Assembly (NCBI GenBank): GCA_020073485.1
Contig: JAIQFB010000009.1
Span: 1 to 64,000, forward strand
Source of the DNA: Terriglobia bacterium
Lineage (GTDB): Bacteria; Acidobacteriota; Terriglobia; Acidiferrales; UBA7541
Direction of reading: 5' to 3'
Length of the DNA stretch: 64,000 nucleotides
The notes below the pieces were generated by a model. The model made no database searches. It was not told where the DNA came from and was given only the letters and a program-made list of their open reading frames with translations. Below are positions 25,427 through 48,519 of the stretch, piece after piece. Each line of letters opens with the position of its first letter. Position 1 is the stretch's first letter. The position numbers and the translations under genes are program-made.

Positions 25427-25469
25427 AAAGGAACCCCCCCGGAAGAAGAAGGAACAGAAACGGCCTTAG

Positions 25470-25517: not shown

Positions 25518-25699
25518 CGCAACGTTCAGTGTATCGCGTTATCGGCACGCGATTGAGCCCCTTATGGTCTTGCTCATTTCATATGCCGGCGTGAAGGCCG
25601 CTTGCGCAGCCCGCGAAGCGCTTCGCCGCTGATTACTCGGCTGTTTGTCGCGGCTCGAGATGCCTGCGGAAGCGATGATTTCTCATCCGGGTGTAGATG

Positions 25700-25890: not shown

Positions 25891-26053
25891 ATATGCCGTT
25901 GGGCGTGGCCCGAAACTCAAACCTCTGGTTTCAGCCCAGGTGACCTAGCGCGAAAACGCGCAAGAAATAACGAATTCTAGCGGCAATGAGTGTGCTTGAG
26001 TTGTAACAAAAACTTCTACAGTCTGTTTCCGACACAGGATACCTACCTACCCA

Positions 26054-27616: not shown

Positions 27617-27619
27617 TTA

Positions 27620-28063: not shown

Positions 28064-28091
28064 TGTTTCATCCTTGAACGAACCGAGTTGG

Positions 28092-29534: not shown

Positions 29535-29540
29535 CGTCGA

Positions 29541-30185
29541 TCAGTCTCCAGGCTGTGAAGTTCTTCTCACAGCAGCAGCTACTTTCAATAAATCAGAGCT
29601 TAAAGTCAGACCTGCGTCCTGGGCGCTTGTGAGATTCACCTCGAAACGAATCTTGCTCCCCACCATGACGAACTGGATCATCCCGCCGCGCTGCGAGAAC
29701 TGCGGCATGTCACTGACGGTCAGGACCCCCGCCTTATCGAGCGCCGCCAGGAGTTCCTTTAGTCGACTGCCCTCGGACGAGCTTATATACAGAACGCGGC
29801 AATTCGCGGCATCTTGCGGTTTTGCAACTCGCTTCGCCACCACAGCCTTGCCGTCTATGGTTTCACCCGCAAGCATGCCGTCAAGAGCGGTGCCGAATGG
29901 ATCCTGCCCAATCACGCAAATGGAAAACGAATCGCCCTTCGCCGCAGTGGCATTGGGGGGCCATTGGACAAATCGACCGAAATTATAAAGATAGGTGGCC
30001 TTCACCTGATACTCGGACACTTTTGGTTGTTGGGCTTGCAGGACGGGAATGTGTAGAAAAGCCAACATCACGATAACCGCTGTGGGGCACTGCCACACGC
30101 CAAGGTAACGATTGGAAACACGGTTGCGCGGAGCGCATTGGTCCGATGCGGAGCTACTCGAGCGCGTCATGGATATCGGTACCAA
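29541..30185 (-). CDS. YfiR-family periplasmic protein (DUF4154)
   Basis: A 214-residue exported protein. A long N-terminus precedes a hydrophobic stretch (VIVMLAFLHIPVLQA) and the mature YfiR domain: YQVKATYLYNFGRFVQWPPN at its start, then SICVIGQDPFGTALD, CRVLYISSSE, LTVSDMPQF and GGMIQFVMVGSKIRFEVNL. In Pseudomonas YfiR is a redox-responsive periplasmic repressor of the diguanylate cyclase YfiN. Here no cyclase is nearby and a kinase follows instead. TTG 30185 directly follows the receptor stop and has GGAGAAGG upstream, so translation is coupled; ATG 30170 is an alternative. Confidence 0.87.
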   Translation of the reverse strand: MVPISMTRSSSSASDQCAPRNRVSNRYLGVWQCPTAVIVMLAFLHIPVLQAQQPKVSEYQVKATYLYNFGRFVQWPPNATAAKGDSFSICVIGQDPFGTALDGMLAGETIDGKAVVAKRVAKPQDAANCRVLYISSSEGSRLKELLAALDKAGVLTVSDMPQFSQRGGMIQFVMVGSKIRFEVNLTSAQDAGLTLSSDLLKVAAAVRRTSQPGD

Positions 30186-32321: not shown

Positions 32322-32822
32322 AGGGTTGGGTTGGCTCCCAGTGGGAGAGAGCATGGGGGCCAATGTTTCAAATTTTACTTCACACAATCGCATCACGCTG
32401 GATTCAAAGTTGCATACGTGTCTAAAAGTGAATTGGCTGGCTTTTCCGTTCGTCAGCTGATCCAACGCGATCACTGTTGGCATCACTGATAGCGGTCTCA
32501 GTGGAACTGTCTCCGTGCGAACTGGCGTTCGATTGGGGGGCCACCAACCTTTAACCATGAGGGCCCACTTTACGAAGGGACGATCTGGTGAGCTGCGAAT
32601 TCGATTTTGGCCACGTAAAACTCGAAGATTGAGATTGGCGGAGCGCTGGTCGGAACAGTCGTGCCTAAGAACCGACGATCAGTCAATTTTGAAGGCAAAG
32701 TCCCCCAAGTCTTGGGCGAGCGGCATTTTCAAACTTTGTTCTGGCACTGCTCGACTCATGGGTAATCGCGTTGGCTTTCAGACACCCCTAGAATAATGCT
32801 TCGTGATTTCATAGTGTTGGCA
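32322..32822. other. Upstream region of the signalling operon, no gene seen
   Basis: About 500 bp between the receptor start and the right-hand direct repeat. The promoter of the leftward operon should lie here. No supported gene or RNA is visible; short frames on both strands have no recognisable content. Confidence 0.35.
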
Positions 32823-33012
32823 ATTTTGTAGCTGCGAAAGCACCAAACTTCAACAAGATTCAACAGAGTTCAACAAGCGAGCCGCAAACGTTTCAACAGC
32901 AATCACCTAGAAACCACAAGATTCAACAGACTTCAACAAGAGTTGGCATCTGGTTCGGGACCAGGAGGTCGGAGGTTCAAATCTTCTCGCCCCGACCATT
33001 CTTTTCAATGAG
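32823..33012. repeat. Right copy of the 190-bp direct repeat (iterons plus tRNA-Pro 3' half)
   Basis: This is the direct-orientation partner of 25700-25890. It has the same order: ATTTTGTA, GCGAAAGCACCAAAC, an array of TTCAACAA/TTCAACAG units, the shared CCGCAAACG and CCACAAGATTCAA spacers, the tRNA-Pro 3' half and TTTTCAATGA. Scattered substitutions separate the copies. With the left copy it brackets the TonB/YfiR/kinase operon. Confidence 0.8.
32950..32998 (+). tRNA. tRNA-Pro(CGG) 3'-half fragment (right copy)
   Basis: Anticodon arm CTGG TTCGGGA CCAG, T-arm GGTTCAAATCT, acceptor 3' strand and CCA are present. The 5' half is absent, as in the left copy. One T-arm position differs (ATCTTCTCG against ATCCTCTCG), so this copy has also drifted. 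It is not a functional tRNA; it probably marks an attachment site. Confidence 0.75.
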
Positions 33013-33155
33013 ATTGTTTGCCGCCTTTTTTGCGGCGTTGCTCCCGTTGCGAAAGCCACGGCTCGACATTGAGAAACGCGCTGAAGTACCATAAATGGCC
33101 CAAACAAGAACCTACGCTGGCTGAAGGTGGTGTTCGACGTTTGCTTACAGTGATT

Positions 33156-33362
33156 CTACGCGCGGCGCCGATATCCACAGGGGCATCGCTTTGTCTTCAC
33201 GTTAAAGCGGTGAGAGCCATAGCGAGGACATTTAGGGAACTCACGCGGTCTCCCACCAAGTTTGCCATTGCTGCGCGCCGCCGCGGCTTTAGCCTTTGAT
33301 TTGGTTCTTCCGCCCCGTTGAGCCAGGATACGTGCCGCTCGCAACACAATATCTTCCTTCAT
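33156..33362 (-). CDS. Small basic protein with Cys-rich ribbon, unknown
   Basis: A 68-residue, strongly basic protein. The N-terminal half has RAARILAQRGGRTKSKAKAA, then ARSNGKLGGRPRE, a motif seen in small proteins of mobile regions. The C-terminal half has FPKCPRYGSHRF and KRCPCGYRRR, where three Cys and a His could form a small zinc ribbon. ATG 33362 is the first sensible start but has no clear ribosome site. It sits between the right tRNA-Pro fragment and a truncated recombinase. A DNA-binding role is plausible but unproven. Confidence 0.4.
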   Translation of the reverse strand: MKEDIVLRAARILAQRGGRTKSKAKAAAARSNGKLGGRPREFPKCPRYGSHRFNVKTKRCPCGYRRRA

Positions 33363-33628
33363 ACTATTTTTGTAAACCCATCCGGTCAGTTTGTCCAATT
33401 CTGTACAGCTTAAGTGTAGTAGTTACCCATTGATTTGCGTATGACACTTTACGTCGCTCTGAAGCATTTTGGGACATTTCTCAAGGCGATCCCCTGGAAA
33501 AGTTGGCTTTACATTCAATACACACGACTTATAGTTCTCGTCGAATGCACAGAATGCTTCTACAGTGCAGTCGATTTAGATCGACAAACCTAAACGGACG
33601 GCTTCTTATCATTCTAGTAGAGAACATT

Positions 33629-34012
33629 ATGTATAACCAAACCGAAGCTCAACAGGCACAGTCAGCAAACCAGAGAACTCATCTCAGCGAGTCAGAAATG
33701 CTCGATATCCTCGAACTGGCGCGCAAGACCAATGCTCGCGATTGGGTGATATTAGTTTTGGCTTTTCATCATGGTTTGCGCGTTACCGAGGTCTTGGAGC
33801 TCAATATAGAGGGCAGCATTAATTGGAAGGACCGCACGCTGACCGTCAAGCGTTTGAAGGGCAGCCTGACCACGACACAACCATTGGTCGAGATCCGCGG
33901 CAAGCCCGCCTTGTCCGAAGTGGCCGCCCTGAAAGCCTACCTTAGAAGTATCGGGCCTGAGCTAAATTTAGATCGTGGGGTTTCGCAGGAAACATCTCCT
34001 GCGCGCGTTTAA
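33629..34012 (+). pseudogene. Tyrosine recombinase, truncated after the first catalytic Arg
   Basis: A 127-codon frame encodes the start of a tyrosine-recombinase catalytic domain: HLSESEMLDILELARKTN, then AFHHGLRVTEVLEL with the first catalytic Arg, and LTVKRLKGSL with the beta-strand Lys. The normal HxxR and Tyr regions are missing; after ALKAYLRSIGPEL the reading turns to unrelated sequence. It lies 630 bp beyond the right tRNA-Pro fragment, consistent with a relic of an element that used such att sites. Confidence 0.7.
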
Positions 34013-34205
34013 GCGGAGGGTGGAGCTCGCAACTGGCAGTACGAGAAAAACTGAACTTTCCAGTCAGGGGCTGGTTCTTCCGATCGATAGAAAAAAGTCG
34101 AAGTAGCCCTGGCCGTGGAGCCCCTGGATAGTGGAAGACACGGCTTCAGTGAATCTCCAAACAGACATTTGAAAGGGGCAGCAAATTTCGATGTATGGCC
34201 ACTAG

Positions 34206-34355
34206 AAACTTCCAGAACCGCCCTGCCTGGGAGTGGCGCACTTTGATCTTGACCGCATGCACTCCTGTACCGAGGTGTTTTGCGTCGAGATTGTAAATAT
34301 ACTGGCAATCGCTTATGCGGAAGTTTGAGCCAGTATCTGCCACACCTACCACGCA
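34206..34355 (-). pseudogene. Possible fragment of an extracellular Ig-like (PxKF-type) domain
   Basis: The minus strand reads GVADTGSNFRISDCQYIYNL, then DAKHLGTGVHAVKIKVRH and a terminal FWKF. This resembles the last beta strands of the PxKF-type C-terminal domain of secreted proteins (YxYN, TK-L--G, LxVxV). The frame has no proper start and continues into unlikely sequence. The rest of 34013-34639 shows nothing I can support. Confidence 0.3.
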
Positions 34356-34639
34356 CGTGCGTGTATCTTCCGCGGATTTCCCAAGTCTTCTTCCTGTCGA
34401 GAACCATCTCGACACAAAGAACCCTTATAATCAAGCCGTTCAGGAGCGCACGAAACTCCCCCAAATTATCATCCTCGGCTTAGGTTAGGTTTGTATTGCT
34501 CCCCTCTAAAACTGGTCCGGCTCAAGGACACCGCCATAGAGGTACATTGTGTAATTGCTCTTTGGTGGCAAATTCTCTATGTTGAACCATAGAGCCAAGT
34601 ACGAAGCGCACGACAGAGAGTCAAATCGGAAGTTCCGGC

Positions 34640-36214
34640 CTACTTCGCCCCGCTTCGGCCTGCGCGCGATTCGTTGACTCCGCCGGTCGGCATGCGGATC
34701 ACGCCGACGTTGTTCTCTATGGAGATGGTTGTCCCAAACTGCTTGGAGATCTTCTGCATCTTCGCGAGTATTTTTTGGGCTACTTCGGGCGACGGCGTCA
34801 TGGGGATTCCTAAACGCGATAGGGGGCGCATCATTTCCTGGCCAAGATCTGCCGGGTACAGGCGCACCTCCACCAGCTTGCCGCCCTCGTAGTGGGCCGA
34901 CACCAAAAGCACTTCCAGTTCGTCAGGATGGTACCGCTGGCCGCGCCACCCGCTTTCTATTTCGGTGAAAGGTCCATTGCCCGGGTTGGCGGGTTCGGCG
35001 CGGATTCCATAAAGACCCTGGGAGACGAAGCTTGCGATTCCGTAGAAGATTGGTTTGCCCTTGTAGATCTCGACGCCGCGCAGGGTGTGGACGCCTTCGC
35101 CGATGAAGACGTCGGCGCCGTTGTCGATGGCCTTGTGCGCGAGCTCGACCAGAAAGTCGGGGACATCGTCGTCGAGGCTGTATTCCTGGAAGGCGTAGTT
35201 GGCCTGATGGCAGTGGATGGATGCGACCATGAAGTCCGAGTTTTCCTTGCCGAGGCGGATGCTGCGCAGGATTTCCTGCTCATCGCGAGGGTCCATGGTG
35301 TAGCTGATGTCGCCTGCCTTGGGGCCGGCCTTGTACCAGATGCCGAAGAGCTGGAGCTGGTCGGGGGGTTCATTGGGATCGATGGGAGGGACGGCTAGAG
35401 ACGTAGCGGGGACTTCGCTGCGGCGGGCGTAGACGGAATCGCGAATTTTTCGCAGGGCGTCGAGTTGTTCCTGGGTGACGATGAAGTGCGGCGTGACGTG
35501 CAAGGGATTCATACCGGGCGCGCCGCCCTGGTCGCCTTCGCGGTAGGTTGCGGCGACCACGGGACTCGGTTCGCTGGTGGGATCGATGGACCACATGGAA
35601 ACCAGGCCTACGCTGCCCTTTGCTCCGTTATAGAAAGCCGCCGCTCGCGCCTCTTGCAGATTCCGGCCGGTGCCAGCGTGGACGATGCCACCCTCGTCCA
35701 GGTTTTTGATCGTCTCGAAAAGACCGGGTGCCGATCCGTCCCAGGAGTGGTTGTTTGCGGTGCTCATGATGCGTATGCCCATGGCCTTGATATCGGCGAG
35801 AGCCCCCTTGGGCGCGCCACCGCCGATGGGGTTCGGGAAATTGTCGAAGTCGAGCAGCGTGCCTTCCATGTTGGCGAAGGAGACGTCGGCGTCGCGCAGG
35901 TGCTGGATCAGAGATTGGAATTTCGGGTCGGCGAGTTGCGCCACGGGGTGCCGAATGATTATGTCGCCGACGCCTGCGAAGGTGAACGGCTCCTTTATCT
36001 TCATGCCCAGGTCTTGGAATTCGAGCGGCAGGCGAGCGCCTTGCGGGACGCCGCCTGCGGCGGGAGTGGGTCTCGCGACCTGCTGCTGGGCATAAATTGG
36101 GTTCGCGAAGCCCTGCGACAGCGCGTGCGCGACGAAGAGGATCCCCGCCGTGAGTGCCAGAACTAGAATGCGCGAGGCCCACTGCCGGCCATTGCAGAAT
36201 CGCATTTGGATCAT
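34640..36214 (-). CDS. CapA-family (PgsA-like) exported protein, copy 1
   Basis: A 524-residue exported protein of the CapA metallophosphoesterase-like family, known from poly-gamma-glutamate capsule loci. The signal peptide has core LVLALTAGILFVAHAL. The family motifs appear in order: FTFAGVGDIIIRHPV, DADVSFANMEGTLL, STANNHSWDGSAPGLFETIK with HAGTGRNLQEA, ASIHCHQANY, and GADVFIGEGVHTLRGVEIYK followed by KPIFYGIASFV. A roughly 100-residue insert lies between the HAGTG and HCHQ motifs. ATG 36214 has GGGGGGAG upstream. It is 34 bp downstream of the Tat-exported M28-like gene, in an operon with a second CapA and an Oar-like receptor. Confidence 0.87.
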   Translation of the reverse strand: MIQMRFCNGRQWASRILVLALTAGILFVAHALSQGFANPIYAQQQVARPTPAAGGVPQGARLPLEFQDLGMKIKEPFTFAGVGDIIIRHPVAQLADPKFQSLIQHLRDADVSFANMEGTLLDFDNFPNPIGGGAPKGALADIKAMGIRIMSTANNHSWDGSAPGLFETIKNLDEGGIVHAGTGRNLQEARAAAFYNGAKGSVGLVSMWSIDPTSEPSPVVAATYREGDQGGAPGMNPLHVTPHFIVTQEQLDALRKIRDSVYARRSEVPATSLAVPPIDPNEPPDQLQLFGIWYKAGPKAGDISYTMDPRDEQEILRSIRLGKENSDFMVASIHCHQANYAFQEYSLDDDVPDFLVELAHKAIDNGADVFIGEGVHTLRGVEIYKGKPIFYGIASFVSQGLYGIRAEPANPGNGPFTEIESGWRGQRYHPDELEVLLVSAHYEGGKLVEVRLYPADLGQEMMRPLSRLGIPMTPSPEVAQKILAKMQKISKQFGTTISIENNVGVIRMPTGGVNESRAGRSGAK

Positions 36215-36248
36215 AATGCGCTCCCCCCCCAAAAATTTTAGCGGCGGC

Positions 36249-38270
36249 TCAGGACAACTTGGAAATTTGGCCATCCACCAAGGCACTCAATGGAGCTTGC
36301 TTGTCCGGCACAATCCAGGAGGAAACATTGGTTGCCAAGTTTTTGAGCGCGCTCCTGGCATCCGCGTTGGCTGCAACTTCCACCTTTCTGAATGCGGCGA
36401 CGTATTGGTCCACTAATTTCTGCCGTTGAGTCGCGCCGTCTTGCCGGGAGACGAAGTCAGAATCCGGAATTTTGATTAGCGCTGATTTGAGATCGCCCCA
36501 TCCGAGGTCAATGACAACGGGCTTGACCAGCGATAATTCACCCGCCAACTGAGACAATCCGGATATCTGCTGCATGAAATACTTTTCGTCAAAGCCGTGA
36601 GGCCCCGCTTCCGTGTCCACTTGCGCAAAACTCTGGGTCCAGGCACCGGGCCAGTCGGCAGCAAGTCCGATTCCCGGGATCTTGAACATCCTACCCTTGT
36701 TCATCGGACTTTTTACTTGGCCCTGAAACCCACCGTTGACGCCAGGCTGAGTGCTGCCGGCTTTTACATCGACCCTTGGCCAATGATTGTCGGTGGCGGC
36801 TTTGGCGATCGCTTCGACCAGCCAGACGTTGTTGTTGTAGACGTCGAACAGGCTGGTGATGACGCCGCCATTTTCCGGGGTTTCGGGGGAATAGACGTAC
36901 TCGTTGCGGCCGGGTCCGGTTTCGATGGTCTGGCGGCCGCCCATGTGCTCCATGCCGAGCGTTGCGACGATGGATTTCAAGTGCTCGGGGTGAATGTTGT
37001 AGTAATCGAACTGCGGCCACGCGGGCTCACCGCCCGGCATGAAATGCCGGCAATCGAAGTAGAACACCAACGTCCGCGGCCTGGCCGACTTCGGAATTTT
37101 ATTGAAGTAAGACATGATGGCCAGCATGCCCAGGCCGCCGACTTCCTCGACCAAGGACATCGCATCGGTGTGCGTTGCGAGCATGACCTGCTCGTCAAGC
37201 GGCGTGCCGTAATTTTTCCCCGGTAAATACGCGATCATGGCTTTTCCTACGTCCCGCTGGAAATGGCCGATCAGCGTCAAAGTAGCCGTCTTGCCGGCCT
37301 TCGCGTCCGCGAGCACTTTTGCTCCGTTTACACGATCGAGAGCAAGAGTGGGGCAGTTGACATATTTCGCGCCGAGTCCGGCTTTGCCGTCGGGCGTGAA
37401 GACGCTTCGTTGTGTAAGCCCGAACGCTGCTCCAGGCGACAGGTCGTAGACAACAACCATGCCGGCAGCATGTCCGTTGATGCCGATCCTGGCAGAACGG
37501 CCAGTCGCGTTTGGAACAAAAGGTGAAAGGAAAAAAGGGTCCACAGCCTGGCCGATCTGACTCCAGACCCAACGGGAATGATATGAGGTGGTTACGCTTG
37601 TGGGCACCGGCTCAAACAAAGGGCCCCACTTGCCCGGGGAGCGCCACTCGTAATCGGTCATGGTGTAACTATCCAGAAACGCTTTGCTGTAGGGGGGCGG
37701 TGGGTATGGATCGGTTTGGAAGACCAGAATTTTCCCGGCAATTTCCGCGTCGGACGGTGGATTGGACGGATCGTAAAACAGCATTGGAGCGGTAATTCCT
37801 TCGGGCGGCGTGAAGCCCGATGTCATGCCGTACGACGCGACCACCGGAACGGGTGTGCCGTCGGTAACAAGCTTCTCCACAGCCATTCCGGAGTCATAAA
37901 TGTGGGTCCTGCGATCGGGCCAATCGTCCACGATGTGATGATCGTAGGGGATTTCAATAAAATCTAGGTCGACGGCACCGAACTGCGGCATTTTCGAGAT
38001 CAGAAAATCGGTGAATTGTTTCCAGCCCGCGCTGCCCGCCCATGTGGGACCGCACTTGGCTTTGAACTTAGCCCACTCCAGTGCTTGCTCGGGCGTAATC
38101 ATGAGCTTCTGATCGATTTTCGGGAATGCGAGGTTGCTCTTCGCGGCTGCGGCCACGGGCATGCCTTGGGTCCAAAGTGGTTCCCCAATTAAGGCCGCGC
38201 CGGCGGTGGCGCCGGCCGTCTTCAGGAAATCCCGACGGGAAGAGTTGGGATTGTTTTTCGATTTGCTCAT
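36249..38270 (-). CDS. Tat-exported M28-like (PA/aminopeptidase-type) protein
   Basis: A 673-residue protein with a twin-arginine signal, SSRRDFLKTAGATAGAALIG. The middle part (about 130-300) looks like a protease-associated insert region with AGKILVFQTDPYP. The region from about 385 resembles an M28 peptidase core: MLATHTDAMSLVEEVGGLGM, then RTLVFYFDCRHFMPGGEP. The usual Glu-Glu catalytic pair of M28 is not clear, so activity may differ or be lost. AGGAGG precedes ATG 38270. Export in folded form suggests a metal cofactor. It sits between two CapA genes; a shared substrate, perhaps a polyamide or peptide, is an inference. Confidence 0.65.
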   Translation of the reverse strand: MSKSKNNPNSSRRDFLKTAGATAGAALIGEPLWTQGMPVAAAAKSNLAFPKIDQKLMITPEQALEWAKFKAKCGPTWAGSAGWKQFTDFLISKMPQFGAVDLDFIEIPYDHHIVDDWPDRRTHIYDSGMAVEKLVTDGTPVPVVASYGMTSGFTPPEGITAPMLFYDPSNPPSDAEIAGKILVFQTDPYPPPPYSKAFLDSYTMTDYEWRSPGKWGPLFEPVPTSVTTSYHSRWVWSQIGQAVDPFFLSPFVPNATGRSARIGINGHAAGMVVVYDLSPGAAFGLTQRSVFTPDGKAGLGAKYVNCPTLALDRVNGAKVLADAKAGKTATLTLIGHFQRDVGKAMIAYLPGKNYGTPLDEQVMLATHTDAMSLVEEVGGLGMLAIMSYFNKIPKSARPRTLVFYFDCRHFMPGGEPAWPQFDYYNIHPEHLKSIVATLGMEHMGGRQTIETGPGRNEYVYSPETPENGGVITSLFDVYNNNVWLVEAIAKAATDNHWPRVDVKAGSTQPGVNGGFQGQVKSPMNKGRMFKIPGIGLAADWPGAWTQSFAQVDTEAGPHGFDEKYFMQQISGLSQLAGELSLVKPVVIDLGWGDLKSALIKIPDSDFVSRQDGATQRQKLVDQYVAAFRKVEVAANADARSALKNLATNVSSWIVPDKQAPLSALVDGQISKLS

Positions 38271-38357
38271 GGTGCGCCTCCTGGAAGATATTGTCATATA
38301 ACCGAAAGCGTCGAGTTCCTTCGCTACGCCGGTTGCGGTTGCCACGAAGAAATCCCC

Positions 38358-38373
38358 GTCCGCCGCGGCGGAC
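38358..38373. repeat. Short perfect palindrome between CapA copy 2 and the M28-like gene
   Basis: GTCCGCCGCGGCGGAC is a perfect 16-bp palindrome in the 146-bp spacer. It could act as a weak transcription pause or operator. No T-tract follows on the minus strand. Confidence 0.4.
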
Positions 38374-38416
38374 AGGCTACAGCAGCTGCGCTGCGCGCGA
38401 TCGATAACGATACGTT

Positions 38417-39637
38417 CTAATTTCCCGTGTGCCTCAAATTAATTTCCGCCGTGTCGCCATTTACTACCACATTTGTGCCGAAGGGGCGCGAGGAATCGGC
38501 CAGACGCTCGAGGATATAATGCGCCTTTTCGCCCGTAGCCGGCGCGGGCAAGCCGCGTGTGGCGATGAATGGCCGCGGAAACTCCGGCAGACTGAACGGA
38601 CGGTCTTCTTCCGAGTCGGGCTGACCGTGGCCCATCTGATTCAACGCGATCGGGCGGAAGGTGATCGACTTCAGATTTTTTCCTTGAAATTCCACCGACG
38701 CGATTACGCTTTCCCAGACGATCGGTTCGAGAAGCTGTGTCGCTTCCATCAGCGGCAGATTGAAAATGAAATTACCGAGGTCGTAGAAAATCGGGCGGCC
38801 TTTGTAGATTTCCACGCCTTGCACCAATGGCGCGCCATGCATCACGATGATGTCCGCACCCGCATCGACTTCCGCGTGCGTCCATTTCTTGATCCAATCC
38901 GGAGGCGCCAGGCGGTCCGGCAATTCTTCGCTGAAAATCATGCCGAAATCTTTATCGTAGATGTGATTGTGCTGGTAGACGATCACCAGGTCGGCGTGCT
39001 TGCTGGCATCGCGGATGCTTTGCAGGATGCGCTGCGTGTCCTCCTTGCTCGGAACGTTTCCGGTTTCTACGCGCAGTTCATTCACTCCCGGTCGATTCAT
39101 CGTGGCCGGCGCTCCCGCGCGGACTCCGCCCGATGCCATGGCGATCAGTGCAACTGTGCCTTTGGGTGTCCGCAGCATGCCTGGGCCGGCCGCTTCCTCC
39201 AAAGTGTTGCCGGTTCCGGCGTGAGTGAAGTTGCGTTTGTTGGCTTCGAGGATGGCGTTTTGCACGCCTGGAATTCTGAGATCCCACACGTGATTGTTGG
39301 CCAGCGAAAACATATTGAAGCCCATGTCCTTGAGCGCGTCCATCGCCTCCGGTGGGGCGAGGGAGTTGCCTTCGCGAGGCGCCGCATTGTTGGGCTGGCC
39401 CTTTTCGGCGACGGTGGCCTCGAAATCAGTGAAGACCACATCGCCTTTCAGCAGCGGAGCCATCGTCGAAATTTCGCCGGGTTTGTATAGGCGGATATCG
39501 GACCGGATCATGGATTGCCCGGTCAAAACGATTTTGATAGGAGCCGCCTGCGGCCACGCGGCGGCCGCATTCGTGAGTGCGATGGCCAGGCAGATTGCTG
39601 CCAGCGTGAGGCGGCCATATTTTAATTCTCTTGGCAT
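38417..39637 (-). CDS. CapA-family exported protein, copy 2
   Basis: A 406-residue CapA protein with a signal peptide (core LTLAAICLAIALTNAAAA). Motifs: IKIVLTGQSMIRSD, where the usual Gly-Asp is Gly-Gln, then GDVVFTDFEATV, SLANNHVWDLRIPGVQNAI with HAGTGNTLEEA, LVIVYQHNHIYD, and GADIIVMHGAPLVQGVEIYK followed by DLGNFIF. The altered first motif may change metal binding. AGGAGA precedes ATG 39637. It is shorter than copy 1 and clearly diverged from it. It lies between the Oar-like receptor and the Tat-exported M28-like gene. Confidence 0.87.
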   Translation of the reverse strand: MPRELKYGRLTLAAICLAIALTNAAAAWPQAAPIKIVLTGQSMIRSDIRLYKPGEISTMAPLLKGDVVFTDFEATVAEKGQPNNAAPREGNSLAPPEAMDALKDMGFNMFSLANNHVWDLRIPGVQNAILEANKRNFTHAGTGNTLEEAAGPGMLRTPKGTVALIAMASGGVRAGAPATMNRPGVNELRVETGNVPSKEDTQRILQSIRDASKHADLVIVYQHNHIYDKDFGMIFSEELPDRLAPPDWIKKWTHAEVDAGADIIVMHGAPLVQGVEIYKGRPIFYDLGNFIFNLPLMEATQLLEPIVWESVIASVEFQGKNLKSITFRPIALNQMGHGQPDSEEDRPFSLPEFPRPFIATRGLPAPATGEKAHYILERLADSSRPFGTNVVVNGDTAEINLRHTGN

Positions 39638-39714
39638 CAGTATTCTCCTGGAATTCGCATCTCTCGAAAAAAATGGGCCGGACTTTTCCTTACGACGTTC
39701 CGAACGGGCCGATG

Positions 39715-39745
39715 GAATACACCCGGTCCCGAGCCGGGTGTATTC
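39715..39745. terminator. Strong hairpin after the Oar-like receptor gene
   Basis: A 12-bp perfect stem GAATACACCCGG/CCGGGTGTATTC with a 7-base loop lies in the 169-bp gap between receptor and CapA copy 2. A second stem GGCCGGG/CCCGGCC is nearby at about 39763-39786. No clean T-tract follows on the minus strand, so these may be an attenuator, processing site or partial terminator that lowers expression of the downstream genes relative to the receptor. Confidence 0.5.
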
Positions 39746-39806
39746 TCCCGGCGACGGAACAAGGCCGGGCATGGTCGACCCGGCCCTTTTCAATCGAAGT
39801 TGATTC

Positions 39807-42800
39807 TTACCAGACAATCTTCGCTCCCAGTTGAATGATGCGTGCTGGGGTGGATGTTGAGTCGATCAGACCGAGAGTCCCTCCCATCGAATTGTTGTCC
39901 ACTGGTGCCTGGAGATTGGTGTGATTAAAAATATTGAAGAATTCAAACCGTAGTTGCAGGTTAAAGTTCTCCGAGATTTTCGGAACATACGTGTTCTTGA
40001 CGAAGGACATATCGAAGTTCACAAGGCGCGGACCAACCAACGAGTTGCGCCCATTGTTGCCGAGAACCGGACCGGCGGCGGTGATTGGCGCGACAATGAA
40101 GCAGCTCGCGTTGAGATAGTGGACGCCGCCCTGGATTGGGTTGCAACCAGATACTCTGTTCGGGAAGTCGATCGCGTCCGTGCTATTCGAGCCCAACGGG
40201 TCGCCCCCCGTGACCACGGTAAAGGGTACGCCGGAGCTCACGGTTCCAATCCCTCCGAACTGCCATCCGCCGGCAACCCACCGAAGAGCTGAGTCTCTCT
40301 TAGGCCCCGGAATGTCATAAAGGTAGTTGATGGAAAGGTTTTGGCGTAAGTCGAAGTCGCACGGGCCGTACCTCATTGCCGGGTTAAAGTACTGAAGCGA
40401 TGTGAGCGAATTCTGGAAGGGATCTCCAAATTGCGCCGCATCTCCACCGGAGCTGCAGTGGCTATAAACATACGTAATCTGCCCCTGGAGATTGTGCGTC
40501 GGTCGAAGTTTGAGCTCGGATTGAAGACCTTCATACTTGGCAGTGTTATCCCAGAATATCTGTCGAAGGGTACGAACGTTCGGGTCAAGGACTGTCCCGC
40601 TGCCAATCGGCAAGGGCCAGGTAAAAACTCCGTTGACCAGCGTAGGCAGAACCATGTTGGTCTGGTCCGTGGTGAACGAATTATGGGTCGTGATCGAGCC
40701 CACGTACCCCACCATCGCCGTCAGATTCCTGGAAATCTGGTGCTCGATGTTCAGGTTCCAATTCTGGGAGTAGGCGCGCTTCGGGTTTGGCTCCACGTAG
40801 CGTCCACCCGGAACGCCTTGGGCAACGTAAGGGATAATGTTCGGGAATGCACCTTGCGCTATGCTATTCACTGGCGCGGTGAATCCAATGGAGAATGGGT
40901 AGGTGACCACGAATCCGTCCGAATAAATATAGGGAAGCGGGAGCACATCGAAGATTCCGTACCCTGCGCGCACCGCTGTTTTTCCGTCATGGAACGGATC
41001 CCAGGAGAATCCAACCCTGGGGTCGAAATCGCGAACAGTGGGGTTAGAGTTCCAGAGTTTTGAAATGGGAACCGGACATCCGGGGACAGACGTGGGACCG
41101 AAAGTATTGGGATAGAGGTTGGTACAGGGTCCGGATCCCGGGGGCGCGGTGAAACTGTTGAGCCGCGTAAAGCGGTTATAAGCCTCGGTAGGGTTGGTCA
41201 GCATTTCGTAGCGCAGGCCCAAATTAACTGTGAAGTAGGGGCGGGCGCGCCAGTCGTCTTGAACATATCCCCCAAAGATACTGTCCCTGGGCTCGATCTG
41301 TTGGCCTATTCCAGGAGTTGCTAAGCTTGCGAGCGGGGTGGCCCCGCCAGTCCGTGGCTTGTCGAGCAGGAAATTCTCCATCGCGTCCGCAATGGTTGCT
41401 CCGCCGACGACGGTGGAAGCGAACGTGATGCTGCCGTTGTTTTCGCCCTCCAACAGCCCGCCCGAGCCGACCTCGTACTGGATCCGCTCGAAGGCAAACC
41501 CGAATCTCAAAGAATGCAACCCGCGGATCAGGGATAGATCGTCATAGGCTTGATAGGAATTGATTCGATGCTGCCAGTGAGAGATGCCCTCCCCTCCCAT
41601 GGTTACGGGGGAGTTGGAACCGCTGAAAAGAAATTGCGGCGGCCCTCCTGCGAGCGCTTGACCGGGAATTGCGAGTCCCACATTCACCGACGCCGGATTG
41701 TTTGCTATATACGGCTGGTTGGCCAGCCCTGCGCCTCGGTTGTAGCCAATCCTGACGATGTTGACAAGCGAAGGAGTGAAAATATGGGTCTCGGTGACGC
41801 CGGCCATCTGCCGTCGAGCCAGCTCTTTGTTGACCACATTGTTCAGGGCGTCGGGAACGGTTTGTGGAGAATTATCAAAGAAATAGCTTAAGGCGAGGCT
41901 GTCGGTGTTGGAAATTTTGTAGTCGCCCCGCAGCGTAAAGTAGTCCTCATTGGAAATTTTGCCGCCGAAGGTGTGGTAGATGGCCGCGTTGCCGTTGTCA
42001 CTAGGCCCGCCCACAGGGAGCAGTTGCGCCGTGGCGGGATTCGGGTAAAGGGCGAGATACGGCACAATGTTCGGAGACACGGTTATGGTATGCGGCGAAC
42101 ATGCGTTGGGACCGCTGGCGATCGGGATCGAGCACATGTTTCCAGCTTCGGCCGCCGCCGACGGGACGACGTCGCTGAAAGTTTCGCTCAAATTCTGACG
42201 GACCGCCTCGTAATCTCCGAAGATGAACAGCTTGTCTTTAATAATCGGGGCTCCCGCGGACGCGCCAAACTGTTTCTGTTGAAAAGGCGGGATTTTGGCC
42301 GGGTCGAAGAAATTGCGGGCGTCAAAAACCTGATCGCGGTCGAAGAAATACGCGGTGCCATGGAGCTGGTTCGTCCCGGACTTGGTGATGGCGTTGATGA
42401 CGGCACCCGAGGTTCTCCCATACTCAGCGGTGTAGTTAGTGGTAACCACACTGAATTCCTGTATGGCATCGACGCCCAAATCGGCGGCGAGAACGCTGCC
42501 CGGGGCTCCATTTGTATAATCGTTCACGTTAATGCCGTCGATGCGGTAGGTGTTTTCGTTCGGGCGATGGCCGCTGTCGCTCAGTTGATTTCCAAAACCG
42601 CGCTGGGCGCGGTTGGCGGTGCTGTTGGTGGAAGTCTGGGCGCGGATCGCGGTGATGCCGGGTTGCAGAGTCGCGAGTTGCGTCCAGTCGCGGCCGTTCA
42701 GCGGCAGTTCGACGACCGTTTTCTGTTCCACAGTCCCGCTCATCGTGGATGAGGTGGTGTCCACACTCGGAGGCGCAGCGCTCACTTCCACGGCCTGTTG

Positions 42801-43169
42801 AAGTTGCCCGACTTTCAACGGCAGATTCAGCACCTGGTTGGCGCCGACGGATAGTGTCAGGCCCCTCTGCACCATCGTTTCAAATCCCGACGCCTTGACC
42901 GTAACGTCGTAGACGCCCGGCAGGAGGTTTGGGGCTGAATACAAGCCCTCCGGGTTTGATGTCACCACTCGAACGGTGCCGTTGGCAACGTTTTGAATGG
43001 AGACGTTCGCGTTGGGCACGGCCGAGCCCGATTCATCCTGCACAACCCCGGACAGGTTTGCTCCTGCCAACTGCGCATATGCCTGCGCATCGAAAAGAAC
43101 GAATAGGATTGCCGTCAGAAGTACGACCCAGGCCCCGGAATGTACTTTTCGTAGACGTAGAAATTGCAT
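39807..43169 (-). CDS. Oar-like TonB-dependent receptor, second copy
   Basis: A 1120-residue outer-membrane receptor. The signal peptide (core WVVLLTAILFVLFDAQAYA) is followed by a carboxypeptidase-regulatory-like domain (ANLSGVVQDESGSAVPNANV, then LLPGVYDVTVKASGFE). Plug motifs are ELPLNGRDWTQLATLQPG, IDGINVNDYT and GAVINAITKSGTNQLHG. A long barrel follows, ending RIIQLGAKIVW with terminal Trp. GGGAGGTAAGGA precedes ATG 43169. It heads an operon with CapA, Tat-exported M28-like and CapA genes. The membrane-spanning regulator at 44814 is transcribed divergently, but an IS element now separates the two. Confidence 0.9.
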   Translation of the reverse strand: MQFLRLRKVHSGAWVVLLTAILFVLFDAQAYAQLAGANLSGVVQDESGSAVPNANVSIQNVANGTVRVVTSNPEGLYSAPNLLPGVYDVTVKASGFETMVQRGLTLSVGANQVLNLPLKVGQLQQAVEVSAAPPSVDTTSSTMSGTVEQKTVVELPLNGRDWTQLATLQPGITAIRAQTSTNSTANRAQRGFGNQLSDSGHRPNENTYRIDGINVNDYTNGAPGSVLAADLGVDAIQEFSVVTTNYTAEYGRTSGAVINAITKSGTNQLHGTAYFFDRDQVFDARNFFDPAKIPPFQQKQFGASAGAPIIKDKLFIFGDYEAVRQNLSETFSDVVPSAAAEAGNMCSIPIASGPNACSPHTITVSPNIVPYLALYPNPATAQLLPVGGPSDNGNAAIYHTFGGKISNEDYFTLRGDYKISNTDSLALSYFFDNSPQTVPDALNNVVNKELARRQMAGVTETHIFTPSLVNIVRIGYNRGAGLANQPYIANNPASVNVGLAIPGQALAGGPPQFLFSGSNSPVTMGGEGISHWQHRINSYQAYDDLSLIRGLHSLRFGFAFERIQYEVGSGGLLEGENNGSITFASTVVGGATIADAMENFLLDKPRTGGATPLASLATPGIGQQIEPRDSIFGGYVQDDWRARPYFTVNLGLRYEMLTNPTEAYNRFTRLNSFTAPPGSGPCTNLYPNTFGPTSVPGCPVPISKLWNSNPTVRDFDPRVGFSWDPFHDGKTAVRAGYGIFDVLPLPYIYSDGFVVTYPFSIGFTAPVNSIAQGAFPNIIPYVAQGVPGGRYVEPNPKRAYSQNWNLNIEHQISRNLTAMVGYVGSITTHNSFTTDQTNMVLPTLVNGVFTWPLPIGSGTVLDPNVRTLRQIFWDNTAKYEGLQSELKLRPTHNLQGQITYVYSHCSSGGDAAQFGDPFQNSLTSLQYFNPAMRYGPCDFDLRQNLSINYLYDIPGPKRDSALRWVAGGWQFGGIGTVSSGVPFTVVTGGDPLGSNSTDAIDFPNRVSGCNPIQGGVHYLNASCFIVAPITAAGPVLGNNGRNSLVGPRLVNFDMSFVKNTYVPKISENFNLQLRFEFFNIFNHTNLQAPVDNNSMGGTLGLIDSTSTPARIIQLGAKIVW

Positions 43170-43392
43170 TTCCTTACCTCCCTAAGTGATTAACATGCCC
43201 GTCTAGCGTGAGCAGCTTTTTGGATGCTGGTCGGTTGTGGGAAATAGCATGGACACAAGAAGGTTGGCAAGTGCGAGTAGGTGAGAAACAGGTGTCATAC
43301 TTTTTCGGCGGTGTTACAAGGCATCTATGTCGCTGACCTACCAACATTTAGCGAAAATAAGGAAACTGATCGATCTGCTGGACTTCGGTGGT

Positions 43393-44767
43393 GTCCCGAA
43401 TTCTGTAGAAAAGTTGATAGCGCATTTTGTCTGAAGATTCATTCCATTCTTTTCTAAGCAGCAGCTTCTTCTTTCCCTTCTAATTCGCGGTAGTCTCTGA
43501 TGCCGCGCAGATTCATCTGTCCGCTGATCCACAACCCGAAGAACACCCGCAGCATGGCACCTTTGTTGGGCAGGGCCGCCTGGGTTTTGATTCGGCGGTG
43601 AAACTCTTGCTGCATCCGCTCGATGATGTTTGTCGTGCGCAGCGACAGGTGCTGGCTCGCCGGGAACTGGTAGAACGTCAGCAATTGCTCGCCGGCCTCT
43701 TCCAAACTCGCCGCGACCGCAGGGCACAGTTTCTTCCACTTCAACAGAAACGCCGCGCGCGCCCGTTGGCCCGCGTCCCGAGTTCCGGCGTAGACGATCC
43801 GGTGGTAGTCCTCACGCACCGCTTCGTGCGCGTGTTTCGGCGCCTTGGCCATCAGATTCCGTAGCTTGTGCACCGTGCAGCGTTGGTGAGCCACGCCCGG
43901 CCACAGGCGGTCCAGCGCCGCTCCCAGCCCCGGGTTGCCGTCACTCATCACCAGTCGCGGACGGCCCATCTTCCGTGAGGCCAGGTCTTCCAGCAACATC
44001 TGCCAGCCGTCGGTGCTCTCCGCTCCGGCGCTCATCAGACTCAGCAACACCTTCTCGCCCGTGTCCTTCACTCCCAACGCCACCAGCACCGCCAGCGACA
44101 CCACTCTCCCCGCGCTGCGCACCGTCGGATGAATCGCATCCATGTACAAAGTACAAATACAGAATCCTCTCTTCCGCCAGATCGCGCCGCTGCCAGAGGC
44201 GATAGCTTTCTTCCAGCCGCAACACCAGGCGGGATACCGCGCTCTTCGACAATGCCGCCCCGCTAAGCAACGCTTCCGGCGCCCCGCGGATCCGCCGCGT
44301 ATTCGATCCCGATAGATACACGCTCAGCACGCTCTGCTCGACTTCGGCGCTGCTCCGCCGGTACCGTGGCACCAGTTGACTGTGCCATTCCCGCTCGCCG
44401 CCGTCGGGCGTGACCAACCGCCCCCGCGGCACTGCCAAATCGACCGCGCCCGTGCGCAGCGTCAACCTCCTCGGCTTGCGTCCATGCCGATACCCGCACC
44501 GCTCGGCCACCCGCTGGCTGCACCCCGCTCCCAGCGCTGCATCCACTTCTTCCTCCAGGATCAACTCGATTACTTCCCGCACGCGTTCCCGAATCGCCGC
44601 CTCTAACCTCTCTTGTAGAGAACCCTCTTGGACCACTTCTCTGCCAATGCTAGTCTTCGCCATGGCGTATCCTCCTGTGCCCGAAACCTCCTGCTAAGAG
44701 ATTCCGGGTTCTTTGTTCAAGTCTCCTCAGGAGAATACGCCTTCCCTTTTTCTACAGGAATCGGGAC
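43393..44767 (-). mobile_element. IS256-type insertion sequence
   Basis: A 1375-bp element is bounded by inverted repeats. The left end begins GTCCCGAATTCTGTAGAAAA at 43393. The right end, read inward from 44767, is GTCCCGATTCCTGTAGAAAA, 18 of 20 identical. The length and transposase are typical of IS256. I see no matching target-site duplication next to the ends (left flank TTCGGTGGT, right flank GGAACCGTG). It lies between the receptor gene (43169, leftward) and the regulator gene (44814, rightward), so it splits their control region. Confidence 0.85.
43454..44663 (-). pseudogene. IS256-family transposase, frameshifted by a 7-bp duplication
   Basis: The N-terminal part (from ATG 44663) reads LEEEVDAALGAG, GYRHGRKPRRLTLRTGAVDL and SKSAVSRLVLRLEESY in one frame. 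The C-terminal part reads MDAIHPTVRSAGRVVSLAVL, LVMSDGNPGLGAALDRLWPG, CTVHKLRNLM and RTTNIIERMQQEFHRR in another. The switch falls on a tandem repeat GTACAAA GTACAAA (44144-44157, plus strand). Removing one copy joins the two parts as ILYLYMDAIHPTVR with the first catalytic Asp in place. Together they make about 400 residues, the normal length. The element is probably inactive unless the shift is bypassed. Confidence 0.88.
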
Positions 44768-44813
44768 GGAACCGTGGACTTCCAATAATGAGGGCAGTAT
44801 ACTCGCGCCAATC

Positions 44814-46133
44814 ATGGGTACGGTACCCGCAATTCAGGCAAGTTCAGGCCTCACAGATGAAAAAATTCTGGCCCAAATGGACCGGATTGTCCAAAGTGAA
44901 GCCTTCCGCAACTCCAGAGTCCTGCAACGCCTTCTAAGATTTCTGGCGGATAAATACATCTCCGGCGAAGCTCAGCAACTCAAGGAGTACACGGTCGCGG
45001 TGGAAGCGCTCGGGCGGCCGTCCACGTATGATCCCCGGCATGAGTCGGCCGTGCGGATTCAGGTCGGAAGGCTGCGGCAGAAGCTGGCGGAATACTATCG
45101 AACCGAAGGGAGCGGCGAGGAAATCATCATTGATTTGCCAAAAGGGCGTTTTCAACTGTCCTTTGAGTTGCGGCAACCGGTTAGCGAGGCTGCCCAGCGC
45201 AGATCGATGGCTTCCATCGGTCAGATTCTAGTTTACGCGGCCCTGGCAATATCAACTGTCTGGGGAACTTATGCGACGGTAATGTTCAAGCGCGAACACC
45301 AGAAAAATGCCTCCACTCGGGTGATTTTGTCCCCGGCAATAGAGCAGCTGTGGCAGCCGTTTTTTACAACCAACCATCGCATCATCATCGTGTTCGAGGA
45401 TCTTCTGTTTTTGCGATTGCGATTCCATCCGGGAGACCGGTCGCTGCTGTTCCGCGACACCACGGTCAACGAATGGTCGCAAGTTGACAATTCCCCAAAC
45501 GTGAAAGCGATTCGCAGCGCGCTGAAAAATTCGCGAGTGGATCCGGACCAATCCTTGACCATGGCGTCGGAAGTGGTCTCTTCGTTTTTACTGGGGAAGC
45601 TCTTGGGGACACGGCAGCAGAATATCTCGATGGTAAAGAGCAGCCAGATTTCCTGGCGTGAGCTTTCCGACGAAAATGTGGTGTACGTCGGGTCGAGCCC
45701 GTTTTTTGATGTTTCTTCGGTCGGAATGCCACTGGTGCCGCAGTTGGTGCAAGTCAGAAGCGGCGTCCAGAATCTGAAGCCGGGCCTGGGTGAACCGGAA
45801 ATATTCCTGGATCAAAACGGGCCGGGGGGCGCGGATGACGGGGAGCTTTACGTGGTGGTGACGCACATTCCGGGAAAATTGGGGAGCAGCGACATTCTCA
45901 GCTTCACTAGCAGCCGGTCACCCGGTTTTCTGGGAGCTGTCGAGTGGTTCACCAATCCAAATCTGGCACAAACCTTGGTAGAAAAGATCAAGAAGACGCC
46001 CTCTGGAGAGTTGCCGCGCTATTACCAGATCCTGTTCAAAGTGAAATTCAAGGACGGAGTCTCGACGCAGACTTCGTACGTACTCCATCGGGAATTGCAC
46101 TTGCCCGACAAATCAACCGTTGTGGAACGGTGA
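44814..46133 (+). CDS. Membrane-anchored winged-helix regulator
   Basis: A 439-residue protein. The N-terminal 100 residues form the winged-helix domain seen in many acidobacterial one-component regulators: LQRLLRFLADKYISGEAQQL, then LKEYTVAVEALGRPSTYDPR, SAVRIQVGRLRQKLAEYYR and a basic DLPKGRFQLSFE end. A single membrane segment (IGQILVYAALAISTVWGTYA) follows, then a 290-residue extracytoplasmic domain of unknown type. This is a ToxR/CadC-like layout. ATG 44814 is chosen; the frame extends into the IS end, which is not part of the gene. It probably regulates the divergent receptor-CapA operon. The IS256 end is only 46 bp upstream of its start, so its own promoter may be replaced. Confidence 0.75.
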   Translation: MGTVPAIQASSGLTDEKILAQMDRIVQSEAFRNSRVLQRLLRFLADKYISGEAQQLKEYTVAVEALGRPSTYDPRHESAVRIQVGRLRQKLAEYYRTEGSGEEIIIDLPKGRFQLSFELRQPVSEAAQRRSMASIGQILVYAALAISTVWGTYATVMFKREHQKNASTRVILSPAIEQLWQPFFTTNHRIIIVFEDLLFLRLRFHPGDRSLLFRDTTVNEWSQVDNSPNVKAIRSALKNSRVDPDQSLTMASEVVSSFLLGKLLGTRQQNISMVKSSQISWRELSDENVVYVGSSPFFDVSSVGMPLVPQLVQVRSGVQNLKPGLGEPEIFLDQNGPGGADDGELYVVVTHIPGKLGSSDILSFTSSRSPGFLGAVEWFTNPNLAQTLVEKIKKTPSGELPRYYQILFKVKFKDGVSTQTSYVLHRELHLPDKSTVVER

Positions 46134-46553
46134 TTGAACTCCAACGTTTCTGGAAGTTGAGACTTTGACCGCTCAATCTTCGAGTCTCGTTCTCGGGCCA
46201 AAGGGATCCGATTGAGACGTGGCGCAAATGTTTGCGTCCTAGTGTCCTCTGGGAGATTTTAGGGGACCCATGCCCAAGACGGCTGCTGAAGGATTGGCTC
46301 GTTTTTTCTCAATGCCACAGATCGAGCGGATTTTGAAGAGAGGCAATTGCGCACGCCTAATTCGATCAGGTCACGATCACCCATGGAAACCAAGTGAAAT
46401 AATGCGCTGAAGCGGGTAGCTCGTACACCATCGCCGATAAGATCCTACTCTTTTTTCCAGTTAACTCTCTTTATAGATTGAATAGCAATAACTACATCTT
46501 TATGCAAATGTATAGCATTTCGTCCTTCTTGGAAAACGATGTCTCTGCTAGCT
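46134..46553. other. Intergenic region, no gene seen
   Basis: A 420-bp stretch between the regulator gene and the lyase relic. No open frame with recognisable content, RNA or strong palindrome was found. Confidence 0.35.
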
Positions 46554-46829
46554 TTAATTAGCGAGCGGGCTTGGGCGCAGCCGGATGTGAGTAACATAGC
46601 CCATTCGTGTTTCCGTAAATCTGGGCAAGTACGAACTAAATGTCGCCCACAGCCCACGGCCTTTCCAGCCTGCGTTGGCATCGTCGATTCGCCCGTCCAA
46701 ACCTCGCGTGTAGAAAGGCATCGGGTATGGCATTCGTATAACCAAAAATGTTTCCTTCTTGGGATCGAACACCAACATCGAATCTGCATTCGCACCCGTT
46801 AAAATTACGGTGTTCTTCCCTACGGAAGC
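46554..46829 (-). pseudogene. Vgb/SMP-30-like beta-propeller lyase, C-terminal relic
   Basis: The minus strand encodes the tail of a streptogramin-lyase-like beta propeller: VILTGANADSMLVFDPKKET, then MPYPMPFYTRGLDGRIDD, NAGWKGRGLWATFSSYLPRF, TETRMGYVTHIRLRP, with a stop at 46554. The similarity ends abruptly at about 46829, where the TIR gene frame begins on the other strand. The 5' part of the gene has been removed or displaced, which marks this point as the edge of an insertion. Confidence 0.65.
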
Positions 46830-47426
46830 TTGCATAATATTAAAGTGTCTGGCAAGGACATGGTTTTCCGATTTGAAGAAAAGGGGAAATTTCAACGGTC
46901 TGTCGTGGAGGAGTTTGCTGGACGCCTTGGAATTGACTCATGGGAACAACACAGGACCCATTGGGCGGTAAAGGATGCGGGCCTGCCAAGGGCTATGCTC
47001 GCCAGATTGATGCTCTCCTATGACGTCGTACTTTCTTTCGCGGGGGAGGACCGAAAATACGTCAAGCAGGTTGCAGCTTATTTGCAAGCCAGGGGAGTTA
47101 AAATTTTCTACGACGAATACGAACAGGTGCATCTTTGGGGAAAGGATTTGGCCGAACACTTTGAACTTGTATACCGACGCAGCGGCCAATACTGCGTAAT
47201 TTTTATTTCCAAAGACTACGTCAAGAAAATGTGGACGAGACATGAACGCCGCGCCGCATTGTCACGGGCGCTGAATGAACAAGTAGAGTATATTCTGCCT
47301 GCCCGATTCGACGACACAGAAGTCCCCGGAATCTTGCCAAGCGTCCACTATATTTCCCTTCCCGATAAATCGCCAGCCAAGTTCGGAAAGGCTATTTTGG
47401 AGAAGCTGGGCAAACATACCTCGTGA
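46830..47426 (+). CDS. TIR-domain protein with unassigned N-terminal segment
   Basis: Up to 198 residues. The C-terminal part (about 63-198) is a TIR domain: SYDVVLSFAGEDRKYVKQVA, then GVKIFYDEYEQVHLWGKDLA, YCVIFISKDYVKKMWTRHER with the expected catalytic Glu at position 139, and YILPARFDDTEVPGI. This fits NADase-type TIRs used in bacterial defence (Thoeris-like and others). The first 60 residues (FRFEEKGKFQRSVVEEFAGR, then WEQHRTHWAVKD) match no domain I know. The start is TTG 46830 or ATG 46860; neither has an ideal ribosome site. It lies on a small island between a truncated lyase and an integrase relic. No Thoeris partner gene is next to it. Confidence 0.82.
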   Translation: MHNIKVSGKDMVFRFEEKGKFQRSVVEEFAGRLGIDSWEQHRTHWAVKDAGLPRAMLARLMLSYDVVLSFAGEDRKYVKQVAAYLQARGVKIFYDEYEQVHLWGKDLAEHFELVYRRSGQYCVIFISKDYVKKMWTRHERRAALSRALNEQVEYILPARFDDTEVPGILPSVHYISLPDKSPAKFGKAILEKLGKHTS

Positions 47427-47436
47427 GCGAAAAGAA

Positions 47437-47464
47437 AAGAGCCGCCCGGTTAAGAGCGGCTCTT
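47437..47464. terminator. Hairpin between the TIR and integrase genes
   Basis: A 9-bp perfect stem AAGAGCCGC/GCGGCTCTT begins 10 bp after the TIR stop. On the minus strand it is followed by TTTTCTTTTC, so it is a good rho-independent terminator for leftward transcription from the integrase side. It may work both ways between the convergent genes. Confidence 0.7.
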
Positions 47465-47519
47465 GAGATGCGAGCAGTGGTAGAATCAGCCGCACGGACA
47501 AAATCGTCTGCGAGCCGTA

Positions 47520-48314
47520 CTATCCCGCTAGTCGGAACGCTTTCAACGAGCCAAGAAGTATATCAAGAGAATGATCGGGCCGGAGATGGCGAGCACATTC
47601 CGCACCTGAGCCCAACAAAGAGGTACAGGAGTGCTTTGGTATTGCTCGGAAAGCCGCGAAGAATGCCTTCAACTCCTCATCGCTGTAATAGTCGACCTCC
47701 GGCTCCACATACTTCGGGATGTCGCCGCCCTTGCGGTGGCCGACGGCTCGGAATTTGAACTCCACCTCATGCTTGCAATTGCTGAGGAACGTCCCGAGGG
47801 ATTGAATTCGGTTGAACACGGTCCGAGGCTGACTCTTGAGTTTCTTCTGGTAATGCGCGATGAGCTTGAAGATGTCGGACCGATCGACATCAGCCAGATA
47901 CCTTTTCCCGCAAACCTCGGCGAATAGCTCCAATTCCCACTTCCATCGAGCTAGCCCTCGGGCATCGGTCTGCGTAGAACGCTCAGAGAGGAACGATTCA
48001 ATGGCTTCTGTGAGGGTGGGCCTGACGGCTGGAGATCGTTCCTCAGAAGGGAGAGCTTCCCCGGCGAGGACCCTCTCTTGCCTGAATTGAGCCAGAAGGG
48101 CGTCATTCGGGTCCGGGCCAACCCGCTTCCAGACCTGTTTTTTGCCCTCATACCACCGGATGTAATAAACCCCTCCGGGACATGGAAACTCACGATTTTT
48201 GGATTTTCCGACCAGAGGCTTGAGTTTTGAGTTGCCCGCGTAGGCCGCTGGCACTGTGCGCCGCCTACTATTTGCGGTGAAACAGATGAATATGCTGACC
48301 GTCGTGTTCGCCAT
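47520..48314 (-). pseudogene. Phage-type integrase, catalytic domain lost
   Basis: A 264-codon frame keeps the N-terminal arm-binding part (PCPGGVYYIRWYEGKKQVWK) and the core-binding SAM-like domain (TLTEAIESFLSERS to RIQSLGTFLSNC). After YYSDEELKAFFAAFRAIPKH the reading degenerates and ends; the Arg, HxxR and Tyr catalytic residues are absent. It starts 131 bp from the 3' end of tRNA-Gln, the usual place for an integrase that targets a tRNA. It is a relic and could not mobilise the island now. Confidence 0.8.
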
Positions 48315-48444
48315 TTCCCACTCCTGGCTCTAATACTCTACTCAGGAAATAGTAGGCGGTTACAGTAGGCGCAGAAATAGCCCGTTCAGGCTACCCCGCT
48401 AGTACCAGCGTTTTTATTGGCTTTTTATTGCCTTCGAGAAAATT

Positions 48445-48519
48445 TGGCTGGGAGGCCTGGACTCGAACCAGGATAATCAGAGTCAGAGTCTGATGTACTG
48501 CCGATTGTACGACCTCCCA
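48445..48519 (-). tRNA. tRNA-Gln(CTG)
   Basis: A complete cloverleaf on the minus strand: acceptor TGGGAGG/CCTCCCA, D-arm with GGCAGTAC, anticodon arm TCAGA CTCTGAC TCTGA with anticodon CTG, T-arm CCTGGTTCGAGTCCAGG, discriminator G and encoded CCA at 48445-48447. Length 75. It flanks an integrase relic and is the likely attachment site of the small TIR island. Confidence 0.93.

Follow-up and report, generated by a model that had tools for sequence, protein, structure and literature searches.

A 5'-truncated TIR gene in a decayed island at tRNA-Gln and the RTHWAVK domain of its intact relatives

Genes between the lyase remnant and tRNA-Gln

The window, by which we mean the whole 64-kb stretch of DNA analyzed here, is the first 64 kb of contig C2 in the 46-contig genome G000. 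The locus under study consists of a lyase remnant, a TIR frame, an integrase relic, and an intact tRNA-Gln, all of which had been named in a preliminary description of this DNA and were confirmed as real by Pfam, homology, and ARAGORN searches. All three protein-coding genes are truncated. The lyase gene is present as a Vgb-lyase-like 3' remnant on the minus strand (46554..46829), with 91 codons and the stop codon retained and ~590 codons of the 5' part missing. Positions 46557-46829 share 67% identity with residues 592-682, the last 91, of a 682-aa Vgb-lyase-like protein of the same genome (G000:C29), and the Vgb_lyase match of the remnant is weak (E 1.9e-5, under the Pfam cut-off). Lyase-type proteins in G004, G011, and G061 extend well beyond the point at which the window copy is cut. 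On the other side of the locus, the intact tRNA-Gln (CTG) was identified by ARAGORN on the minus strand (48445..48519), is conserved in the sister genome G005, and is taken as the integration target. The neighboring tyrosine integrase relic, also on the minus strand (47520..48314), is 3'-truncated, with homology stopping at ~47604-47660 and the C-terminal catalytic half missing. The relic alone matches no Pfam family, and its identification therefore rests on comparison with G005, in which residues 31-216 of an intact 402-aa integrase (L021:311-1519; Pfam Phage_integrase, E 4e-19) are 38% identical to it. The G005 integrase adjoins the same tRNA-Gln, so that a tyrosine integrase gene abuts the tRNA 3' end in both genomes, as a relic in the window and intact in G005.

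The TIR gene (46830..47426, plus strand) comprises the remainder of an N-terminal RTHWAVK domain and a complete TIR_2 domain (PF13676, E 1.7e-19, 70.9 bits against the Pfam cut-off of 28). AbTIR is among the best PDB sequence matches for this frame, and the Glu of the motif WTRHERR (residue 139 of the frame, codon 47244..47246 on the plus strand) aligns with the Glu of WTNYELDG in AbTIR, the catalytic residue of that enzyme, making the Glu of the window frame the putative catalytic one. The frame is open across 198 codons with no stop, and its start at 46830 is merely the first TTG; TIR-family homology begins at ~46812, with a stop codon just upstream in the TIR frame. Alignment with relatives of 270-272 aa revealed that the window frame is ~68 residues shorter at the N-terminus than the full-length proteins, and it does not contain the complete N-terminal domain found in the intact RTHWAVK-TIR relatives of ~270 aa. 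Judged from its sequence, the TIR gene of the window is itself a relic, 5'-truncated inside the N-terminal domain. The enzyme domain is kept, and because half of the putative trigger domain and the native start are lost, this copy is probably a non-functional relic. Neither a Thoeris, Sir2, or STING partner, whose absence had already been pointed out, nor a CBASS or retron partner was found near the TIR frame among the neighboring frames and in the Pfam scans. A hairpin at 47437..47464, 11 bp past the TIR stop codon, is terminator-like solely in the minus-strand reading and is not significant (one found versus 2.8 in shuffles).

A different reading of the short frame is that loss of the regulatory half released the TIR domain and left a working gene, with a product starting from TTG 46830 or ATG 46860. 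Such a gene would agree with the uninterrupted frame, the retained catalytic Glu, and the complete TIR fold, and the frame of L038, which begins just before the RTHWAVK motif, offers a parallel. However, L038 is itself interrupted after ~94 codons, and the region upstream of the window frame lacks a clear ribosome-binding site as well as any plus-strand match to a sigma-70-like promoter. The start would moreover fall inside a folded domain according to the structural model, and a cost would be expected from an NADase that lacks regulation. We consider a working short gene unlikely and retain the reading of the window copy as a relic.

Comparison of the homology limits of the lyase and TIR genes placed the head-to-head junction at 46812..46829, where the 5' ends of both genes are lost. 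Lyase homology reaches ~46820-46829 and TIR-family homology starts at ~46812, giving an overlap of at most 18 bp. The preliminary description had set an exact boundary at 46829/46830; given this overlap and a TIR start defined only by the first TTG, the boundary is less sharp than described there. We searched for the junction in 89 family genomes, the window genome included. It occurred in none of the 88 other genomes, a few of which contain lyase-type DNA, and in no relative is the lyase truncated in the same way, in keeping with the preliminary description. The missing 5' parts of the TIR and lyase genes were found neither in the 64-kb window nor in C7:1-40000. Since the two genes stand head to head, both 5' parts would have been lost at the same junction, most simply through a single deletion. 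If the junction were instead a product of transposition or of assembly, the frameshifted Mutator-type transposase at 43454-44663 and the start of the contig in a repeat common to C7 could provide the means. The junction lies, however, inside a long contig, and the repeat scan gave no inverted repeats and, at some distance from the junction, a single weak direct repeat of 24 nt, leaving this explanation quite improbable beside a deletion.

Probable extent and composition of the island

Analysis of the att core suggested that the acquired DNA probably reaches far beyond the locus itself. The core corresponds to the tRNA-Gln 3' end (48443..48462, minus strand), and an exact 20-bp copy is located at G000:C7:22023-22042, outside any tRNA and beside a permease gene, against a chance expectation of ~1e-5. 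The preliminary description had proposed looking further left in the genome for such a copy, and the sister species G005 carries the same att copy beside the same permease. A direct repeat of the tRNA 3' end is thus present at a far end, although its membership of the same element as the tRNA-proximal end is uncertain. The window has no direct-orientation repeat of the tRNA 3' end with a length of at least 11 bp, so none lies between 46830 and the tRNA. The earlier picture of a small island bounded by the lyase gene finds no support, and the acquired DNA probably comprises the left part of the window and ~22 kb of C7.

Comparison of G000 and G005 revealed ~86% identity to the right of the tRNA and from C7:22024 onward, with synteny lost both at the tRNA 3' end and next to the att copy. 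Between these points, window positions 26,500-46,499 and C7:1-20000 are not syntenic with G005 and show scattered partial matches, mostly to large outer-membrane barrel genes. The GC content is 0.538 both in C2:1-48443 and in C7:1-22022, versus 0.604 to the right of the tRNA and 0.589 in the C7 flank. We assign positions 1..48443 to the tRNA-proximal part of the island, of which the alignment covered 26,500-46,499. Based on the synteny, the GC content, and the repeated arm-type motifs described below, the DNA between tRNA-Gln and the C7 att copy is interpreted as an island. C2 and C7 are separate contigs in the assembly; C2:1-219 and C7:11365-11583 have the same sequence, and this repeat may have caused the assembly break. 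The island would span at least 70 kb, provided that the two contig ends lie opposite one another at the assembly gap. Among 30 loci around the tRNA 3'-end sequence (up to ~1.5 kb on each side), the permease appeared in 0 of 30, and no contiguous empty site was found. The island genes include an RND efflux system, an MFS transporter, outer-membrane barrels, and sensor kinases, and its far end carries an AAA_25 protein, DUF4238, and an N6 methylase fragment. This N6 DNA methylase fragment (L029:967-1734, equivalent to G000:C7:20967-21734) lies near the distal att copy, beside the last residues of a second integrase. A Mutator-family (IS256-type) transposase gene at 43454-44663 is split across two overlapping minus-strand frames and is probably inactive.

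The two ends of the island differ in their short repeated motifs. At the tRNA end, putative attL arm-type sites are located at 48240..48394 and consist of four copies of GTAGGC/GCCTAC and one of GGCTAC; the GTAGGC/GCCTAC cluster is the densest of its kind in the 64-kb window, with 0.09 expected per 260 bp. The motif GGCTAC/GTAGCC has four copies at the C7 end and, in G005, three copies at one end and five at the other, again with 0.09 expected per 260 bp. At the att sites, these hexamers form clusters toward the element and not toward the chromosome. The C7 end also keeps the C-terminus of a related second integrase (C7:21774-21866). Because the arm motifs differ at the two island ends, two elements in tandem are likely, in which the tRNA-adjacent, TIR-bearing element would be distinct from the source of the C7 att copy. 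A further GTAGGC cluster, sought as the far end of the TIR element, was seen neither in the window nor in C7:1-40000, and for this reason the far end may have been lost in the same deletion as the 5' parts of the lyase and TIR genes. A small self-contained TIR element of ~1.6 kb (46830-48443) inserted in the lyase gene and the tRNA would explain why the lyase and TIR boundaries coincide and why the integrase faces the tRNA, but it is very improbable, since no tRNA 3'-end copy lies at 46830, where the TIR gene too is truncated, the att copy sits beside the permease on C7, and a tRNA-directed integrase would not also join at the lyase gene.

The tRNA-Gln is occupied in a similar way elsewhere in the family. 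G008, G011, G018, and G024 each carry the tRNA 3' end a second time, 0.1 to 28 kb downstream of tRNA-Gln within one contig, which makes this hotspot a practical spot to seek further defense cargo in this bacterial family. In G024 (L134:3519-3697) the second copy lies ~0.1 kb downstream and is possibly the scar of an element that has been almost wholly lost.

Intact relatives and the RTHWAVK domain

A scan of genome contigs recovered relatives whose similarity to the window TIR frame begins at its first residue. Three of them have 270-272 aa, and the fourth (L039) has the same start with its 3' end cut short. These four relatives, which come from Opitutaceae, another Verrucomicrobia MAG, and an Acidobacteria MAG, align to the window frame from their residue 66-69 and all contain ~68 extra N-terminal residues with a conserved MYNVIVAY..WETDQLMRMD..RFKEY segment that is absent in the window. 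Structure prediction gave a pLDDT of 51 from 5 sequences and of 90.8 from 24 sequences, the latter for the intact Opitutaceae relative L037 (L037:5779-6594). The best match of the predicted TIR part of L037 is AbTIR (Z 18.1, rmsd 1.7 Å over 128 residues). Relatives are plasmid-borne and have integrases, AbiE, and restriction genes in their vicinity, and the intact ones look like single-gene NAD-targeting defense cargo.

The N-terminal domain has ~125-130 residues, is marked by the motif [NS]RTHWA[VL]K, and belongs to no Pfam family. It showed no convincing structural match in a PDB comparison that covered mainly residues 136-272 and barely this domain, and a PDB profile search with the domain returned merely a stray designed TPR protein (E 0.005). 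A likeness to an ASCH-type phage "activating signal cointegrator" in BFVD (E 0.015) was too weak to be accepted. In viral contigs, the domain precedes a TIR domain, an FRG domain (Pfam E ~1e-21), or a CAP12-type TIR (E 4e-38), or it stands alone, and profile comparison of the TIR-type and FRG-type N-terminal domains gave a probability of 99.2 with E 9.6e-20. The carriers, with TIR, FRG, or CAP12-type TIR partners or with the domain alone in prophage contigs, are L037:5779-6174, L094:8001-8390, L095:8001-8400, L091, L104, and L105. FRG is a member of the ADP-ribosyltransferase superfamily and has been proposed as an NADase effector (PMC9503650). In the part of the literature covered, we found no paper describing an N-terminal domain common to TIR and FRG proteins. 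We see an even chance that this domain is an undescribed trigger module, common to TIR, CAP12-type TIR, and FRG effectors predicted to act on NAD and also occurring alone in prophage contigs, of which the window relic would be a TIR member with half of the module lost. A 589-aa protein of S. meliloti pSymB (L144:5001-6770) matches the N-terminal domain with 43% identity over 132 residues and has a different C-terminal part; its gene is flanked on one side by an AbiE pair and on the other by a type I restriction gene.

Proposed history and comparison with known systems

The model that we regard as probable combines an island at tRNA-Gln, a TIR-bearing element, a deletion junction, a relic TIR gene, and, in the intact family, a two-part abortive-infection effector. 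In this bacterial family, integrative elements would use tRNA-Gln (CTG) as their site of entry. One with a tyrosine integrase and a single-gene TIR effector would have inserted there, next to older acquired DNA reaching the permease gene with the second att copy. One deletion, most likely, would then have removed the far end of the element as well as the 5' portions of the TIR and outlying lyase genes, creating the junction at 46812-46829, and separate damage would have taken the catalytic half of the integrase. In the intact family, the N-terminal RTHWAVK domain would respond to infection and switch on the C-terminal TIR domain, which would cleave NAD+, so that a single protein could bring about infection-triggered NAD+ depletion. 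This two-part, NAD+-cleaving mechanism is suggested by the fold, by conservation of the catalytic Glu, and by the domain architecture common to these proteins. Entry of an integrative element at tRNA-Gln and its later decay, as put forward in the preliminary description, are supported by the att copy and the synteny breaks; the cargo is not intact, as the TIR gene is 5'-truncated. The locus is a clear case of an element-borne immune gene decaying after capture, a broken gene and not an intact defense system. As a relic it is fairly ordinary, and the intact gene family is more useful. In that family, a single conserved N-terminal domain precedes various enzymes predicted to target NAD, encoded on plasmids, prophages, and islands, and this domain is a testable candidate for a common infection sensor.

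Comparison with known systems indicated that the likenesses of the protein lie in its TIR part. The window gene resembles AbTIR, the TIR NAD+ hydrolase of Acinetobacter baumannii, in the TIR fold and the conserved Glu, whereas the segment preceding the TIR domain has no match in AbTIR and the window gene is truncated. PDC-S66, a phage defense candidate and the best PADLOC match of the TIR frame (E 7.7e-18), is of similar size and likewise has its TIR domain in the C-terminal half, but the match covers the TIR part alone (profile positions 148-239 of 282), and the N-terminal halves do not align, intact relatives included. The TIR domain also matches Thoeris ThsB (E 1.5e-10), but no ThsA (Sir2-SLOG) is located near the window TIR gene and the N-terminal half is unmatched. 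In the case of Retron-TIR (RT-TIR, type XII), there is a TIR subfamily match (NCBIfam E 2.2e-14) that involves the TIR part alone and reaches 53 bits against a cut-off of 600, and the window protein has no reverse transcriptase domain. Although the window island is decayed, probably composite, and has its ends on two contigs, it resembles tRNA-targeting tyrosine-integrase islands in the integrase at the tRNA 3' end, the att duplication, and the hotspot in relatives.
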